A stretch of DNA of 64,000 bases from the NCBI GenBank assembly GCA_004020315.1, contig SAQG01000021.1, positions 35,719 to 99,718 of the forward strand, read 5' to 3'. Source of the DNA: Mesorhizobium sp. Its GTDB lineage: Bacteria > Pseudomonadota > Alphaproteobacteria > Rhizobiales > Rhizobiaceae. The position numbers were made by a program, and so were the translations under genes. The notes under the pieces were generated by a model, which saw only the letters and a list, made by a program, of their open reading frames with translations, was not told where the DNA came from and did not search any database. Numbering within the stretch: the stretch's first letter is position 1; every line of letters begins with the position of its first letter. This document shows positions 55,957 through 64,000 of the stretch, piece by piece.

Positions 55957-56131
55957 ATCGGGAAATTGTGTAGCCTATTCAATTGCATGAATCGGATCAC
56001 GTGATTCCGCTGCCGCGAGGCCGTTAACCCTTTGTTAACTTAAAATTTCTTGCCGGATCGAACGAATCGGACATAATGACGCTTGCTTAGCGTCTTTGCG
56101 CCAAAAATCGTTTTTAGAGAGTGTCGATCTA

Positions 56132-57340
56132 ATGAACGTGAGTTCGCCCGTTCCCACGAAAATCCCGTTGCTGTTCGAGAAAAGCATTCTCGAGCAGGGC
56201 GACCAGATATCGAAGAAGCTGCACCTACTCTCGATGCAGCGCTTCCCTCCCCATGCAAAGAAGAATCTTCGCTCGTTCTCGCTGGCCGAGGTTGCCACGT
56301 ATCTTGGGGTCTCCCAAAGCCATCTGAAGAAGCTGCATCTGGAAGGCAAAGGCCCGGTGCCTGAAACCTCAACGTCGGGCAGGCGGTCGTATACTGCTGA
56401 ACAGATGCTTGAGCTGCGCCAGTATCTCGACCAGTACGGGCGATCCGACGCCCGAATGTATGTTCCCCATCGGCGGCCGGGCGAGAAGCTTCAGATCCTA
56501 GCTGTGGTCAATTTCAAGGGCGGCAGCGGTAAGACCACCACCGCTGCCCACCTCGCCCAATATCTTTCGCTGACCGGGCACCGTGTCCTAGCTGTCGATC
56601 TAGACCCGCAGGCGTCGCTCTCCTCATTGCATGGGTTCCAGCCTGAACTCGACCAGACGAAATCGCTTTACGACTCGATTCGATATGACGACCAGAAGGT
56701 GCCTCTCTCGGAAATCATCAAGCCAACGAATTTCCCGGGCCTCGATATTGTCCCTGCGAACCTAGAGCTGCAGGAATTCGAATACGACACGCCTCTGGCA
56801 ATGACCGACAGGTCCTCGAATGTGGGCAGGGCGTTCTTCACGCGAATCTCGACGGCATTGACGGAGGTCGACGATCGCTACGATGTCGTAGTTATCGATT
56901 GTCCGCCGCAGCTCGGGTATCTGACGATCACCGCACTGACCGCGGCGACGTCGGTGTTGATCACGATCCATCCGCAGATGCTCGACGTGATGAGCATGGG
57001 CCAGTTTCTGCTGATGCTCGGGAACATCCTCGAGCCGATCAGGGCGGCGGGTGCCGAGGTGAACCTGGAGTGGTATCGCTATCTTGTTACTCGATTCGAA
57101 CCCACGGATCAGCCGCAAGCGCAGATGGTAGCGTTCCTGCATACGCTGTTTGGCGAATTCATTCTCAAGAACCAGATGCTGAAATCGACGGCGATTTCCG
57201 ATGCGGGGATTACCAAGCAGACCCTCTACGAAGTTGAGAAGAATGCGATGACCCGTTCCACATACGAGCGGGCAATGGATGCGCTGGAAGTCGTAAACGG
57301 TGAAGTCGCCGACTTGATTCATAAAGCATGGGGGCGCTGA
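56132..57340 (+). CDS. repA: Plasmid partitioning protein RepA (ParA-type ATPase)
   Basis: NFKGGSGKTTTAAHLAQYL, VDLDPQAS, VVIDCPPQLG; followed by RepB and RepC. Confidence 0.95.
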   Translation: MNVSSPVPTKIPLLFEKSILEQGDQISKKLHLLSMQRFPPHAKKNLRSFSLAEVATYLGVSQSHLKKLHLEGKGPVPETSTSGRRSYTAEQMLELRQYLDQYGRSDARMYVPHRRPGEKLQILAVVNFKGGSGKTTTAAHLAQYLSLTGHRVLAVDLDPQASLSSLHGFQPELDQTKSLYDSIRYDDQKVPLSEIIKPTNFPGLDIVPANLELQEFEYDTPLAMTDRSSNVGRAFFTRISTALTEVDDRYDVVVIDCPPQLGYLTITALTAATSVLITIHPQMLDVMSMGQFLLMLGNILEPIRAAGAEVNLEWYRYLVTRFEPTDQPQAQMVAFLHTLFGEFILKNQMLKSTAISDAGITKQTLYEVEKNAMTRSTYERAMDALEVVNGEVADLIHKAWGR

Positions 57341-57342
57341 CT

Positions 57343-57358
57343 TTTGTCCGCTGACAAA
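57343..57358. promoter_or_regulatory. parS-like palindrome TTTGTCCGCTGACAAA, copy 2
   Basis: In the repA-repB gap; match to copy 1 extends to 21 bp (TTTGTCCGCTGACAAAATCGG). Confidence 0.7.
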
Positions 57359-57415
57359 ATCGGATCTTTTTCGAATGCATTCAATGGACTAGGCGCTATC
57401 TGGAGGTAGACAAAT

Positions 57416-58402
57416 ATGGCACGTAAGAACCTTCTTGCAGGCCTCTCAGAAACGGAGACCGACGATCAGGTGTCGTCTACCTCCACGGCGGCATATCCGA
57501 TCCGCGGCGCTTCGAAATCTATGATCCGCTCAGTCAATGAGTTGGCAAAGCAAGCGGATGCGTATCTTGAAGGCGAGCATGTGGTCGAACTCGATCCAAA
57601 CGTCATCGACGGCTCGTTCGTTTCCGACCGCATGGGCGACGACAAGGAGCAGTATCAAGAACTGCTGGAAGCGATCCGGGAGAGGGGTCAGGATACTCCC
57701 ATACTTGTTCGTCCGCATCCCGGTATCGACGGCCGCTACATGATCGTTTTCGGCCATCGCCGCGTCCGAGTTGCCGGCGAACTGGGGCGGAAGGTGAGGG
57801 CGGTCGTCAAGGAGATCGACGACAAGACTCATGTCATTGCCCAGGGTCAGGAGAATTCTGCTCGGGCAAATCTCAGTTTCATCGAGAAGGCGATGTTCGC
57901 AAAGCGCCTTGAAGACTTAGGATACGACAGAGATGTCATCTCGTCGGCATTGGCCTCGAACGCCGCTGCTGTCTCGAAGATGGTGTCAGTTGTCACAAGG
58001 ATTCCGGCATCTGTCATCGGCAAGATTGGGTCAGCTGCATCTGTCGGTCGCGAGCGGTGGGTAGAACTGTCCCTGCTTGTCGGCAGGAAATCCGACATGG
58101 TTACTGAAATCCAGTCCGAACCCGAATTCGGTGAGTTGGAAAGCAACGAACGCTTCGCAAGGTTGCTTGCGGCCCTGAATGCCAAGGGGAAGCCCGGTCG
58201 CAAGGCCAGTGTAAAGCCCGAGGCACAATCTTGGGCTCCTGAGGACAAATCAGTTAGCGTCAGTGTCAAGAAGGCAGGCAGGGCCGTCACAATCGCTGTG
58301 AAGGAGACAGATGGCGGCCGCTTTGGAACGTGGATTTCCGACAATCTGGGCGACCTTTATGAGGCGTTCAGGAAGTCGGAGAGGACAGCAACAGGAGACT
58401 GA
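57416..58402 (+). CDS. repB: Plasmid partitioning protein RepB (ParB-type)
   Basis: ParB-like domain ILVRPHPGIDGRYMIVFGHRRVRVAGELGRKVRAVVKEI; position after repA. Confidence 0.95.
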   Translation: MARKNLLAGLSETETDDQVSSTSTAAYPIRGASKSMIRSVNELAKQADAYLEGEHVVELDPNVIDGSFVSDRMGDDKEQYQELLEAIRERGQDTPILVRPHPGIDGRYMIVFGHRRVRVAGELGRKVRAVVKEIDDKTHVIAQGQENSARANLSFIEKAMFAKRLEDLGYDRDVISSALASNAAAVSKMVSVVTRIPASVIGKIGSAASVGRERWVELSLLVGRKSDMVTEIQSEPEFGELESNERFARLLAALNAKGKPGRKASVKPEAQSWAPEDKSVSVSVKKAGRAVTIAVKETDGGRFGTWISDNLGDLYEAFRKSERTATGD

Positions 58403-58411
58403 ACCGCAAAA

Positions 58412-58460
58412 GAAAAAGGCCCCCGACGGCGAACCGTGGAAGCCCTTCTCGATCTGTAGC
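58412..58460 (-). ncRNA. Counter-transcribed RNA (inc-alpha type) in the repB-repC gap
   Basis: Minus strand: TTGACA (58495-58490), 17-nt spacer, GATTCT; then a stem-loop and T-run at about 58436-58412. Position typical of repABC ctRNAs. Confidence 0.6.
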
Positions 58461-58556
58461 AAGCCGAGAATCTCATTTCCACGAATCAGTGTCAAGAGTT
58501 TTAAGCGTCGATTCGGCGGACGGATTTCTTTTGCCTAATTGAAGGCGAAGGAAGAA

Positions 58557-59762
58557 ATGGAGACGGGTATTGCAACGACGCCCTTTGGGCGGCGGCCGAT
58601 GTCGCTTGCCATGCTGGCAGCGCAAAACGAGTCACGTGAGATCCCCAAAGGCAGGATCGTCGACAAGTGGCAGATCTATCGCAACCTCTGCGAGGGCAAG
58701 AGCATCATCGGCATCGGCGATCGCGCCCTGGCCGTCCTGAATGCGTTGCTGTCATTCTATCCTGACAGTGAGCTGAGCGAGGAAAACGGCCTCATCGTGT
58801 TTCCCTCGAACGCACAGCTGTCCCTCAGGGCGCATGGCATGCCCGATTCCACCTTGCGGAGGAACCTGGCGGAACTGGTGGATTGCGGTCTGGTCATCCG
58901 TCGGGACAGCCCGAACGGCAAGCGTTATGCACGGAAGGGCAGGGGCGGGGAGATCGAGGAAGCATTCGGCTTCTCCTTGGCGCCGCTGCTGGCCCGTGCT
59001 CAAGAGTTCGAGGCGGCGGCCGAGCGTGTTCGCGCCGACAACAGGGCGCTCAGGCTTATGAGGGAACGCATTACGCTGCACCGCCGGGATATCCACAAGC
59101 TGATCGAGGCGGCCGTTGAGGAAGACGTGACGGGCGACTGGGGAGGCCTGTGGAGGCGTTTCCGCGCCGTTGTGGAGACAATTCCGCGCCGTGCCCGCAT
59201 TGCCGAGCTCGAGCCTGTCGTGGCCGATCTGGCCGCGTTGCGTGATGACGTGGATAAGCTGCTTGAAATCCATATGGAATCTACGAATCCGAGCGGCAAT
59301 GAGTCCCAAAGCGAGCGGCAGCAATCTGATTCAAATACCGACTCTATTTTTGAATTTGAACCTGCTTTGGAAAAAAGCGGGGCGGCGGCCGAGCCACTAA
59401 CGAGGACCGCAGAGCCGCCGAAAACCTATCCGCTGGGGCTGGTGCTGAAGGCCTGCCCCGAAATTGCGGACTACGCCGTCGACGGCATCGGCAACTGGCG
59501 CGATTTCATGATAACCGCGGCCCAGGTGCGGGGATACCTGGGCGTTTCGCCGTCTGCGTATGAGGATGCCTGCCATGTCATGGGTCAGGAAATCGCCGCG
59601 GTGGTGATTGCCTGCATTCTGCAGCGGGCACAGCACATCGAGTCAGCTGGTGGCTATCTGCGCGTGCTGACCGAGAAGGCCAGGGCAGGGGAGTTTTCGG
59701 TCGGGCCGATGCTGATGGCGGCGTTGCGAGCGAACGGCGCGACTGCAAAGATGACAGGGTAA
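58557..59762 (+). CDS. repC: Replication initiator RepC
   Basis: TTPFGRRPMSLAMLAAQ...; GLVIRRDSPNGKRYARK...AFGFSLAPLLAR typical of RepC. Confidence 0.95.
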   Translation: METGIATTPFGRRPMSLAMLAAQNESREIPKGRIVDKWQIYRNLCEGKSIIGIGDRALAVLNALLSFYPDSELSEENGLIVFPSNAQLSLRAHGMPDSTLRRNLAELVDCGLVIRRDSPNGKRYARKGRGGEIEEAFGFSLAPLLARAQEFEAAAERVRADNRALRLMRERITLHRRDIHKLIEAAVEEDVTGDWGGLWRRFRAVVETIPRRARIAELEPVVADLAALRDDVDKLLEIHMESTNPSGNESQSERQQSDSNTDSIFEFEPALEKSGAAAEPLTRTAEPPKTYPLGLVLKACPEIADYAVDGIGNWRDFMITAAQVRGYLGVSPSAYEDACHVMGQEIAAVVIACILQRAQHIESAGGYLRVLTEKARAGEFSVGPMLMAALRANGATAKMTG

Positions 59763-59800: not shown

Positions 59801-60283
59801 ATGGCGCATCAAGTGAGGCTATATTTTGCCTCAAATGGAATGGAGAGTGAAATGCTAGCGTTCGGAAATGTCGCCGACGTGTTGGGGCTGCCCGTGAAAG
59901 AGGTGGCGGCGCGGTCGCCTTTCGGGCTGATCTCCCGGATCGAGGATGGACTTCCCATTGGCGCACTTGAGCGCGTTGCGCATCTTCTGGCGCCTGGCGA
60001 TGCTCAGTTCAAATACCGGCTGATCCCCAAGGCGACCTACGAGCGGCGCAAGGCGGTACATCGCCTCTCGTCGGACGAGGGCACACGATTGGCCCGCGTC
60101 GCGCGCGTCTGGGGCCTTGCTGTCGATGTCTGGCAGAACGAAGAGGAAGCGCGCGATTTCCTGTTTCGGCCGCACCCGATGATTGAGGACAAGCGACCGA
60201 TCGACGTCGTTATCATGAGCGAGTTCGGTGCCGAAATGGTGGTCGATATTCTCGCAGGTCTGAAGTACGGCAGTGCTGCGTGA
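59801..60283 (+). CDS. Xre/MbcA/ParS-type antitoxin (DUF2384-like)
   Basis: C-terminal RPIDVVIMSEFGAEMVVDILAGLKYGSAA; directly before a RES toxin. Start may be 59840. Confidence 0.85.
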   Translation: MAHQVRLYFASNGMESEMLAFGNVADVLGLPVKEVAARSPFGLISRIEDGLPIGALERVAHLLAPGDAQFKYRLIPKATYERRKAVHRLSSDEGTRLARVARVWGLAVDVWQNEEEARDFLFRPHPMIEDKRPIDVVIMSEFGAEMVVDILAGLKYGSAA

Positions 60284-60762
60284 CGGCGCAGACTCTCGAT
60301 CGCACTCTATCGTCCTTTCGTATCGGCGATCCGGCCGGCACCTACCCGATCTTCGACGCGACCGGCTCGACAATCGCGCCAGGGCGATGGAACACGCCCG
60401 GAAGTCCTCTCATCTACACCAGTGAGCACTATTCGACGGCCCTGTTGGAAAAGCTGGTGCATGGCAGCGGCCGCCTGCCGCCCAACCAGCACTACATCGA
60501 AATCACGATCCCGCGCGGGCTGAGCTACGAGGTCTTTTCCCAGCCATCACTGCCCGGCTGGGACACGATGCCGGCGACAGTGAGCCAGGGATTCGGCGAA
60601 ACCTGGTGTTTAGACCGGCGCAGCGTCATCCTGCTGGTGCCGAGTGTCGTGGCGCGTCTCGATTGCAATGTGCTGATCAATCCGGCGCATCCGGAGTTTT
60701 CAAAGATCCACACAGGCCTGCACCAGCCGGTCTACTGGGACCGGCGGCTGTTTGGCGCGTAA
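60280..60762 (+). CDS. RES-domain toxin
   Basis: APGRWNTPGSPLIYTSEHYSTALLEKLVH; overlaps the antitoxin by 4 bp. Confidence 0.88.
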   Translation: MTAQTLDRTLSSFRIGDPAGTYPIFDATGSTIAPGRWNTPGSPLIYTSEHYSTALLEKLVHGSGRLPPNQHYIEITIPRGLSYEVFSQPSLPGWDTMPATVSQGFGETWCLDRRSVILLVPSVVARLDCNVLINPAHPEFSKIHTGLHQPVYWDRRLFGA

Positions 60763-60921: not shown

Positions 60922-62091
60922 TCAGACGATGATCCGCGCCGCCCGCCCGAGCGTGCGCTCGGCGTCGTTGTAGTAGTTGGACGCCTGTTGCACCGAGCGA
61001 TGCTGCGACTGCTGCATCGCCTCGGGCAGCGGAATGCCGCGACGGGCGGTTTCGGTGAGATAGCCGGAGCGCAGGCCGTGGGCGGAAAATGCCATCGGAT
61101 CAAGCCCGGCCTCGGCGACGCGTCGCTTCAGGATCAGGTTGACCGCCTGCGGCGTCAGCGCGCGTTTTTTGAGATTGCCCCAGCGGTCGATGCCGCGGAA
61201 GACGGCGCCCTCCCTGAGCACGGCGCGCTCGAGCCATTCCTTCAAGACCAGCACCGGCCGGCCGACGAGCAGCACGAAAGCGTCGCTGTCCGCCTGTGTC
61301 GTTTTGGTGCGGCCGAGCCGGATCGACAGGCAGGGCAGTTTTTCGCCGCCGGGATTCTTGGGGTCGGCGGTCACCGGCTCTTCTTCGACGATCTGCTCGA
61401 ACCTGAGCGAAGCAATCTCGCTGCGGCGGCGGCCGCCGGAGGCGAAGGCGGTGATAAGAAGGGCACGGTCACGCAGGTCGACGAGACGGTCGCCGGCGCA
61501 GGTGTTGAGCAGGGTGGTCAAAATATCGGCGGTCACCGCCTTGTTGCTCTTGCGGCCCCGGGGGCGGGCGCTGGCGCGCACGGCGAGTTTTATGGCGCTG
61601 CGCAGGCCTGGCGCGTTGAATTTTCCCACAAAACCGCGCCAGCCGGTCAGCGTCGACCAGCTGGACAGACGCCGGCGTACGGTGTTCGGCGCGTGCGGTC
61701 CATCGACGCGCAACAGTTTTGCCGACTTCAACGCCGCGGTCACGTCTTCCGGCATACCGTGCGACACGTCGGTTTCACGCTTTGCAGGATCCCACAGGTG
61801 ATGGGCGACGAATTTTATCAGCAGTGCCTCCGGCGCCGGCCAGGGGAGCGAAAAACCGGTCGCGGCGAGCGACCAGGCCTCGAGATAGCCGAGGTCGGAG
61901 GCCAGCGCCCGCAGCGAATTCTCGCCGATGCCTTCTTTGGCGAGATGGCGCAGTGTGGCGACGTCGTCGTCGGTGAGGATTTCGGCCAGAAAATCGCGCC
62001 GGTCGAATGGCAGCACCGAATCCAGCGCATCGAGCGCCTCCGCACGGCGCAGTTTTTGGTCTGGTAAGGGCTTTGGCAGGCGAAGATCCAT
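60922..62091 (-). CDS. Tyrosine recombinase/integrase
   Basis: GGRRRSEIASLRFEQI, FSAHGLRSGYLTETARRG, QHRSVQQASNYYND (R...HxxR...H...Y). Confidence 0.92.
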   Translation of the reverse strand: MDLRLPKPLPDQKLRRAEALDALDSVLPFDRRDFLAEILTDDDVATLRHLAKEGIGENSLRALASDLGYLEAWSLAATGFSLPWPAPEALLIKFVAHHLWDPAKRETDVSHGMPEDVTAALKSAKLLRVDGPHAPNTVRRRLSSWSTLTGWRGFVGKFNAPGLRSAIKLAVRASARPRGRKSNKAVTADILTTLLNTCAGDRLVDLRDRALLITAFASGGRRRSEIASLRFEQIVEEEPVTADPKNPGGEKLPCLSIRLGRTKTTQADSDAFVLLVGRPVLVLKEWLERAVLREGAVFRGIDRWGNLKKRALTPQAVNLILKRRVAEAGLDPMAFSAHGLRSGYLTETARRGIPLPEAMQQSQHRSVQQASNYYNDAERTLGRAARIIV

Positions 62092-62100
62092 GACGGCGGC

Positions 62101-63195
62101 TCAGAACAGATATTTTTTGTCTGCCCAGGCGAGCAGTACGGCGGCATCGCGGTCTGGCAGGCGCACCCGTCCTTGGCGCAGGCCTTCAGCGATCGCATCG
62201 CCGACGTCCGGATCGACCCAGTGCCCGTGCGTCATCAGAAAGAACCAGGCGAAGGGCAGGCCAATCTCGGCGTCGATCGCCTCGGTCCGCTCCATCAGGC
62301 GATGCACCGAAATACCGTCTTCCATCGGCAGCCGCTCTGCCGGCATTTTGAGCGGCCGCGGGATAAAGCCGATCTCGCGCCGGCCACGATCTTCGAGATC
62401 GTGGATGTCGAAGGCCCAATGGTCAAAAATGCGGTGGGCGCAAGCGCTCGACCGCTCCCAGTCGGCAAAAAAGCGGTTCTCGCGCGGCACAGAATCGAAC
62501 CAGTCCGGATTGGCGTCTAAAAACGCGGTGTCGCGCGTGCCGTCGGGGCCGACCTCACGGATGATGCGGTTTTCGAGCTCGGGACGGCTTGCCTCGCGCT
62601 GTTCCGTGTCGATGCGCGCCCGGCGCGCCAAAAAACTCTTCATGTGAACGATGCCGCCGCCGGCGCGGCCGCGCAGCCGGTAGACCGGCCCTGCGAGCTG
62701 CTGCGCCTCGGCAGCGGAATCACGCAAAACCCAGGTCGGCTCGAAGAGCTGGTCGACGCTGTTGGGGCGGTAGTCGGGATCGACTACGGGGCCGGCCACG
62801 ACCTCGATCTCGCGGCTGAGCGAGAGTTGCACGAACTCGGCGACGCCCGGCCCGGACGGCGCAAAGGCGAAGGCGCTAGCGCCGCGCCATTCAGCGAATT
62901 TTGTCCCGTCCTCGCGATGCCGGTTCCAGAAGGCGGTGAGATCGCCGCCCAGTTCGGCCAGCTCGCGTTCGACCCAGGCACGGTGGTCGCCGCTGCGCGT
63001 GCCGTCGGCAGCGACAACAGCGTGAGGGTTGCACCAATAGGGATCGTCGATCGTCGCGACGGTGAAGGCAAAGCCTGGAAAGGCCTTGTTGAGAGCAGGG
63101 GCGAGCTCGGCGTCGGCCGACTGCGCCTCCAGAGATGCGAGCACGGTTTCGGCGGAAGCGGGGTCGGGCAGGCGGACGGGTTTTTCTTCGCTCAT
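62101..63195 (-). CDS. Hypothetical protein (364 aa), probably cotranscribed with the integrase
   Basis: Long ORF 9 bp upstream of the integrase start on the same strand. Confidence 0.8.
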   Translation of the reverse strand: MSEEKPVRLPDPASAETVLASLEAQSADAELAPALNKAFPGFAFTVATIDDPYWCNPHAVVAADGTRSGDHRAWVERELAELGGDLTAFWNRHREDGTKFAEWRGASAFAFAPSGPGVAEFVQLSLSREIEVVAGPVVDPDYRPNSVDQLFEPTWVLRDSAAEAQQLAGPVYRLRGRAGGGIVHMKSFLARRARIDTEQREASRPELENRIIREVGPDGTRDTAFLDANPDWFDSVPRENRFFADWERSSACAHRIFDHWAFDIHDLEDRGRREIGFIPRPLKMPAERLPMEDGISVHRLMERTEAIDAEIGLPFAWFFLMTHGHWVDPDVGDAIAEGLRQGRVRLPDRDAAVLLAWADKKYLF

Positions 63196-63310
63196 CCCAG
63201 GTGGCCTTTCTCGCGCGGCGGAATAGCACCTTGCGTCATTCTCGGCCGCGCGGGACGTGACCGGCGGGGCTCTGCAGGGCGATTCTGGCTGATTTGGGCG
63301 GCGAGATCAA

Positions 63311-63343
63311 TCACTATCGATAAGAGGTCATTATCGATAGTGA
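63311..63343. repeat. Perfect 13-bp inverted repeat with 7-bp spacer: TCACTATCGATAA-GAGGTCA-TTATCGATAGTGA
   Basis: Read directly; between the integrase operon (-) and the DUF1612-like gene (+). Confidence 0.95.
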
Positions 63344-63416: not shown

Positions 63417-64000
63417 ATGAAAACAATGGCTTACGACATCGGTCTTTTGTCCCTGGAAACCCTGATCGGGCCGGTTTCCCGCGCGACCGAAGCCTTGGCG
63501 CGTCTCGACGAGCGCCTGGCCCGCTCGCCGGTCCGCGACGGTTTTATCGAGCGCCAGCACTTCGCCGACGCAGCCGCCGCGCTTTGGCTCGTGGGCGAGC
63601 TCGTCCACCTCGAGGACCTCGTCCTGCACGACGCCCATATGGACATCCGCACCCCAACCCACGAGCTCACCCGGGCGCACGCGGTGCTGCGAACCCGCCG
63701 TCGAATTTTGTCGCAAAAGCCGGACTGGGCGCTCGGCCGCGACGGTTTTTGGGCCCTGACTGGCCGGGGCGGCGCCGTGCCGGCGGCGGAGGGTCCAAAA
63801 AACCGGGAAGGGGAGGGAGCTCGAGCCAGCCCCGTTGAAGCCGACGGTCGGGATGATGGTGAGGACGATCTTCTGGCTGAGGAATTTGCCGAGATCGATG
63901 CTGTCCTGGCGCGCTCGTCGAAGATCCTCAGCGGCGCCGACGTGTCGGCGAGGACGCCGCGTTCGGACGAGCGGCCGGACCTGATCTACGATCTCGACTG
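63417..64000 (+). CDS. DUF1612/HTH-type protein (partial, runs off window)
   Basis: ATG 63417 opens MKTMAYDIGLLSLETLIGPVSRATEALARLDERLARSPVRDGFIERQHFADAAAALWLVGELVHLEDLVLHDAHMDIRTPTHEL...; no stop before the edge. Confidence 0.75.
   Translation, partial: MKTMAYDIGLLSLETLIGPVSRATEALARLDERLARSPVRDGFIERQHFADAAAALWLVGELVHLEDLVLHDAHMDIRTPTHELTRAHAVLRTRRRILSQKPDWALGRDGFWALTGRGGAVPAAEGPKNREGEGARASPVEADGRDDGEDDLLAEEFAEIDAVLARSSKILSGADVSARTPRSDERPDLIYDLD

Follow-up and report, generated by a model that had tools for sequence, protein, structure and literature searches.

A putative 33-bp crossover site of the IntA/att kind beside a Cre-like tyrosine recombinase on a rhizobial repABC plasmid

Main finding

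The 33-bp inverted repeat upstream of a tyrosine recombinase operon in the window, i.e., the whole 64,000-nucleotide stretch of Mesorhizobium sp. DNA that was analysed, is very probably (about 0.9) the core crossover site of that adjacent IntA-type (Cre-like) recombinase. By its sequence features, it belongs to the already known kind of core recombination site represented by IntA/att of Rhizobium etli. The initial annotation had taken the repeat for a lox-like site cognate to the recombinase, and this reading is supported by the relation to IntA, the linkage to the recombinase gene and the homology breakpoints that fall on the site. The anatomy of the site, the orthology, the linkage to the recombinase, the flank breakpoints and the linkage of half-sites to flanks are read directly from the sequences compared. 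The breadth and natural footprint of IntA-type sites may be new. No report of either was found in a search covering part of the literature, and searches on the bare motif and on RHE_PE00001 returned nothing on the site.

The site and its neighbourhood

The features of the region are as follows.

63311–63323, plus strand: left arm, the recombinase-side half-site TCACTATCGATAA; conserved at related loci and following the divergence of the recombinase
63324–63330, plus strand: spacer GAGGTCA, the putative region of strand exchange, within which half-site identity changes
63331–63343, plus strand: right arm TTATCGATAGTGA; conserved in relatives and moving with the right flank
63291–63308, plus strand: imperfect dyad GATTTGGGCGGCGAGATC (GATTT-N8-GAGATC-like), adjoining the left arm; from sequence comparison
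60922–62091, minus strand: tyrosine recombinase of 389 aa, Cre-like IntA orthologue (Pfam Phage_integrase, 8e-13; catalytic residues; 64% identity to the p42a integrase; AlphaFold2)
62101–63195, minus strand: ORF, first gene of the recombinase operon; no Pfam or NCBIfam match
63417–63998, plus strand: 5' part of an RHE_PE00001-family (DUF1612-type) gene, cut by the contig end (NF040876, E = 5.7e-68)
56096–59762, plus strand: repABC replication/partition operon (repA 56096–57340, repB 57416–58402, repC 58539–59762)

The site reads TCACTATCGATAA-GAGGTCA-TTATCGATAGTGA (63311–63343), with 13-bp arms complementary at 13 of 13 positions around an asymmetric 7-bp spacer. The 13-7-13 geometry given by the initial annotation is exact in sequence and coordinates, and the distance to the recombinase operon, put there at about 120 bp, measures 115 bp from the site to the start codon of the minus-strand operon (ORF 63195–62101, then recombinase 62091–60922). 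On the other side, the ATG of the plus-strand gene (63417) lies 74 bp from the right end of the site. By simple arithmetic, perfect 13-bp arms no more than 12 bp apart are expected about 0.01 times per 64 kb; the site occurs once in the window. When related loci are aligned, conservation drops sharply immediately outside the 33 bp. The dyad at 63291–63308 recurs in many of the relatives with a left operon directly adjoining the site; it is a possible promoter, operator or accessory element.

Residues R222, K263, H338, R341, H364 and Y373 of the recombinase are invariant in two alignments, Y373 having been picked by its 9-residue spacing from H364. An AlphaFold2 model of moderate confidence (mean pLDDT 72) has Cre as its top Foldseek matches (E 1e-8, TM 0.58–0.70). 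The XerC and XerD equivalog models score about 24 bits against the protein, the cut-offs being above 329.

For the first ORF of the operon (62101–63195), neither a Pfam nor an NCBIfam family was found, the PHROGs matches were only marginal, and the AlphaFold2 model (pLDDT 49) was uninformative. Since its homologues occur at only a minority of site-bearing loci, the ORF appears dispensable for the occurrence of the site and is probably not essential to the system. It takes the place of toxin–antitoxin pairs in relatives and is kept in a subset of them, mostly Mesorhizobium and Bradyrhizobium.

Directly after repC, at 59801–60762, there is an Xre (TIGR02293)/RES toxin–antitoxin pair, a typical plasmid stability module. 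The complete repABC operon together with this pair identifies the replicon of the window as a repABC plasmid.

Relation to the IntA/att system of Rhizobium etli

In R. etli CFN42, the tyrosine recombinase IntA joins p42a to the symbiotic plasmid at the 23-bp palindrome attA, TCCGATAAGCATTACTTATCGGA; attA has the core CGATAA-N7-TTATCG, as in the window site, and is one base apart from attD (PMC4928290). Cointegrates of p42a and p42d are formed by IntA, and recombinant plasmids arise from them (PMC3224233). Over 383 aa, the p42a integrase (1339–2487) and the window recombinase are 64% identical; 103 bp upstream of the integrase gene (p42a 2590–2622) lies TCACTTCCGATAA-GCAGTAC-TTATCGGAGGTTA, again in a 13-7-13 layout. 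One spacer base distinguishes the p42a record from attA as printed. From the site match, within the 50 kb of p42a inspected, we infer that this integrase (RHE_RS21105) is the published intA. The IntA/att features found again here are an orthologous tyrosine recombinase, the palindromic CGATAA-N7-TTATCG core and identical sites on two contigs.

Homology breakpoints at the site

In plasmids aligned at the site, homology in many pairs is restricted to one side: it extends as far as the site, and the sequences past it are unrelated. Left-only homology ending at the site is seen in L004/L028 (93.9% over 2.4 kb), and further left-only pairs are L077/L083 (95% over 2.2 kb), L043/L051 (89% over 1.9 kb) and L061/L104 (89% over 0.7 kb). 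L002/L005 are homologous on the right only (88% over 0.7 kb). Two loci are mosaics: L082 has its left flank as in L097 and its right flank as in L102, and L051 has its left flank as in L043 and its right flank as in L075. Of 774 homology ends, 151 fall in the 50-bp bin on the site, the most of any bin, in pairs that are non-independent and with some left-flank differences possibly caused by turnover of toxin–antitoxin genes. Further ends cluster at +150, +400 and +1250, in and around the RHE gene, and thus gene boundaries also produce homology ends.

The half-sites themselves follow the flanks. When pairs are selected on the flanks only (left-only, 81; right-only, 366; non-independent), each half-site is better kept with its own flank, and the switch lies inside the spacer. 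The distance of the left arm correlates with that of the recombinase (rho 0.50, p 0.001); the correlation is weak for the right arm (0.15) and not significant for the spacer. The same divergent left half-site occurs in L005 and L022, whose left flanks are near-identical but whose right flanks differ; the pair may record two crossovers, each with another partner. The divergent left arm, ACAGTCCCGATAT, is found at L005 4994, at L022 3994 and in L160. One-sided homology, the linkage of half-sites to flanks, the left-arm correlation and the L005/L022 pair would all arise because a crossover in the spacer parts the right arm from the recombinase.

Two copies in the host genome

The full 33-mer occurs once more in the 6.8-Mb host genome, on contig C153, identical at 33 of 33 positions and beside second copies of the neighbouring genes. 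The flanks of the two copies have diverged to 79% identity on the left and 90% on the right, and the exact core CGATAA-N7-TTATCG is present in those two places of the genome only. Genes for repC are carried by contigs C99, C153 and C178, of which C99 and C153 each have the site and the recombinase; the two sites are therefore apparently located on two repABC plasmids, and we infer that C99 and C153 are separate plasmids. With identical sites on two repC-bearing contigs, cointegration is predicted. Both site-bearing contigs end inside the RHE_PE00001 gene, and the remainder is matched by a fragment on C148; hence a repeat has probably been collapsed at this point of the assembly.

Sharing of spacers by co-resident sites was compared among the matches listed: 10 of 46 within-genome pairs share the spacer, versus 3.5% between genomes (permutation p = 2e-4), a comparison in which duplicated plasmids may contribute and the two site families described below are mixed.

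These data bear on a narrower reading, according to which the crossover site serves dimer resolution only, different plasmids are not joined, and the mosaics come from homologous recombination. It fits the arrangement of a single site per plasmid beside the recombinase and repABC, and P1 Cre/loxP is a resolution system of this layout, with one site per plasmid beside the recombinase. However, the breakpoints fall on the 33-bp match, which is too short for efficient homologous recombination, and co-resident sites share spacers above chance. PMC10194956 does name as the resolving enzyme a Cre-like recombinase encoded downstream of repABC, yet IntA cointegrates p42a and p42d (PMC4928290; PMC3224233). 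Restriction to dimer resolution is thus considered unlikely.

Association of the site with the recombinase

The reading as a crossover site of the recombinase leads to the question of which gene the site accompanies. Seeding with the recombinase only gave 80 loci, at which a site was called at 19 or more matches of the 26 arm positions and permuted arms served as the control. A site with a 7-bp spacer was present at 66 of the 80 loci (permuted-arm control mean, 0.14 loci), and three more loci have 6-bp spacers, giving 69 of 80 in all; several others are cut by contig ends. The 6-bp sites (L047, L058, L073) lie beside close relatives of the recombinase. The recombinase is usually to the left of the site, sometimes beyond toxin–antitoxin genes. 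Occasionally the site occurs with no recombinase nearby (L149, L155, L157, L160, L174), and contig ends account for some of these cases.

The gene to the right was called DUF1612-type in the initial annotation and is now identified as a member of the RHE_PE00001 family (NF040876). The 33-mer might be the operator of this divergent DUF1612/HTH protein, by which it would autoregulate its own promoter: the site is upstream of the gene (about 98–107 bp from the gene start at RHE-seeded site-bearing loci), and palindromes fit HTH dimers. At 40 loci seeded with RHE_PE00001, however, the site was present in 9 of 9 with a nearby recombinase and in 5 of 31 without one (Fisher p = 7e-6), and therefore it goes with the recombinase and is not the operator of the RHE_PE00001 gene. 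In addition, the left arm follows the recombinase, and L019, L020, L021, L022 and L024 have the site with another right-hand gene or with none. Binding by a DUF1612-type repressor only, named in the initial annotation as what would refute the lox-like reading, is disfavoured by the 26 of 31 recombinase-less RHE_PE00001 genes that have no site and by the occurrence of the site without that gene. The operator reading is rejected by the seeded association test and is very improbable. The RHE_PE00001-family gene is a right-flank neighbour outside the recombination system. It is found to the right of the site in L003, L004, L008, L009, L014 and L015, and the family adjoins the recombination site on many accessory plasmids, despite the report that RHE_PE00001 itself is essential on R. 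etli p42e (PMC3898782).

Autoregulation of the recombinase/ORF operon only, with the 33-mer as its operator and not a crossover site, is scarcely credible. The site does lie upstream of the operon, and tyrosine recombinases can repress promoters that overlap their sites. Nevertheless, the recombinase starts anywhere between 55 bp and several kb from the site, and toxin–antitoxin genes often intervene; these variable distances and interposed genes led to rejection of the operator-only reading. The flanks also switch at the site, and crossover at the orthologous site is proven (PMC4928290). A secondary regulatory role may accompany the crossover function.

The probability that the 33-mer is a parS partition site or replication iteron of repABC is negligible and this reading is without support: the window does hold a complete repABC operon and parS sites are palindromic, but the 33-mer is 3.5 kb from repC, has a non-palindromic 7-bp spacer, is single-copy in the window and stays with the recombinase at loci with no repABC nearby (e.g., L009, L014, L015), and the RepB parS sites described in the excerpted text of PMC10194956 are 16-bp palindromes.

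Distribution and a second site family

The initial annotation had suggested a search of relatives for the same site and for spacer variation, and the site was indeed found on many plasmids with varied spacers. A blastn search with the site matched 226 plasmid records, mainly of Sinorhizobium, Agrobacterium, Bradyrhizobium, Rhizobium and Mesorhizobium; some sphingomonads and one Paracoccus are among the matches listed, and 181 records match the p42a version of the arms. At the loci fetched, CGATA/TATCG is invariant in the arms. Nearly all relatives have a 7-bp spacer, and three have one of 6 bp. A strict 25-bp pattern searched across the order gave almost no match outside the host genome because the arms vary; a shorter core pattern and the protein-seeded scan outperformed it. 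The core pattern was surveyed in 299 genomes of the family, of which 112 had matches, far above the reversed-pattern control.

A second site family also came to light in the survey; its spacers are TGCAANA-like and its outer arms of the AACGA type, and it lies near L007-like recombinases that are only about 25–31% identical to the window enzyme in the aligned stretches. Sites of this family, AACGAACGATAA-TGCAACA-TTATCGTTCGTT-like and sharing the inner core CGATAA, are present at L007 8818 and in L194, L199, L200, L207, L209, L218–L220 and L223. The L200 contig bears both site types about 1.4 kb apart.

Plasmids of Bradyrhizobium, Nitrobacter and Sphingobium have transposon genes of the TniA/TniB(/TniQ) type close to the core site, on the stretch separating it from the RHE/DUF1612 gene or a little farther on (L016 4274–6776, L017 5133–6776, L018 5577–8037; cf. 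L006 1338–4892). The placement recalls the res-site hunters of the Tn5053 family, here at a tyrosine-recombinase site.

Proposed mechanism and significance

Binding, cleavage and strand exchange in the host, as well as the balance between resolution and fusion, are predicted by analogy with IntA and Cre. Two recombinase protomers would bind the two 13-bp arms, two sites would synapse, and strands would be exchanged within the 7-bp spacer, whose asymmetry would set the direction of recombination. Two copies on a plasmid dimer would be resolved into monomers. Copies on co-resident repABC plasmids with compatible spacers would give a cointegrate, like that formed by IntA from p42a and the R. etli symbiotic plasmid, and incomplete or alternative resolution of the cointegrate would swap plasmid flanks at the site.

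On a wider scale, there is roughly an even chance that alphaproteobacterial repABC plasmids share a docking-site network. In such a network, hundreds of plasmids with no other relationship would carry interchangeable IntA-type sites at which they fuse and then separate with swapped flanks; spacers would define compatibility groups that co-residents tend to share, and the 33-bp site would be a main natural junction of plasmid mosaicism. The sister recombinase family would have its own, parallel site, in which the inner core is unchanged and the spacers are of the TGCAANA type.

An unannotated repeat is now tied to a proven recombination system, and the site consensus can be used for finding this system on symbiosis and accessory plasmids. 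The two repABC plasmids of the strain should, by prediction, fuse at the 33-bp site. If the footprint is interpreted correctly, one short site explains a definite class of mosaic junctions on the plasmids of rhizobia and agrobacteria, bacteria in which cointegration is a known driver of plasmid transfer. The set of lox-like sites, with 7-bp spacers and differing arms, might also serve as genetic tools.

Comparison with known systems

RinQ of R. etli p42d is likewise a site-specific recombinase beside repABC; it was rejected as a relative, being a serine invertase/resolvase according to the excerpted text of PMC10194956. Sinorhizobium pSmeLPU88b has in common with the window a Cre-like XerD and a toxin–antitoxin module downstream of repABC, and the description of it in the same excerpt includes no recombination site (PMC10194956). 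XerCD/dif and XerH/difH belong to the same tyrosine recombinase superfamily and have dimer resolution as a likely shared task, whereas the window has a single plasmid-coded recombinase, symmetric arms and a 33-bp site, and the TM score with XerH is about 0.4. The dif site measures 28 bp, with arms of 11 bp and a 6-bp spacer.

Cre/loxP of phage P1 is closer: it shares the 13-bp arms, the asymmetric spacer, the location on a plasmid and, according to the predicted model, the Cre-like fold. The loxP site has 13-bp ATAACTTCGTATA arms and an 8-bp spacer; in contrast, the window spacer is 7 bp, the arms are different, and identity in the structural alignment is about 18%.

IntA/att differs from the putative window system in the arm half (CTATCGATAA in the window, CTTCCGATAA in R. 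etli), in the spacer (GAGGTCA versus GCAGTAC/GCATTAC) and in the extra ORF of the window operon. The two systems share a 64% identical recombinase with all catalytic residues, the CGATAA-N7-TTATCG core, the position of the site about 100 bp upstream on the recombinase side and two compatible sites on two repABC plasmids per cell, the plasmids of the window host being presumably separate.
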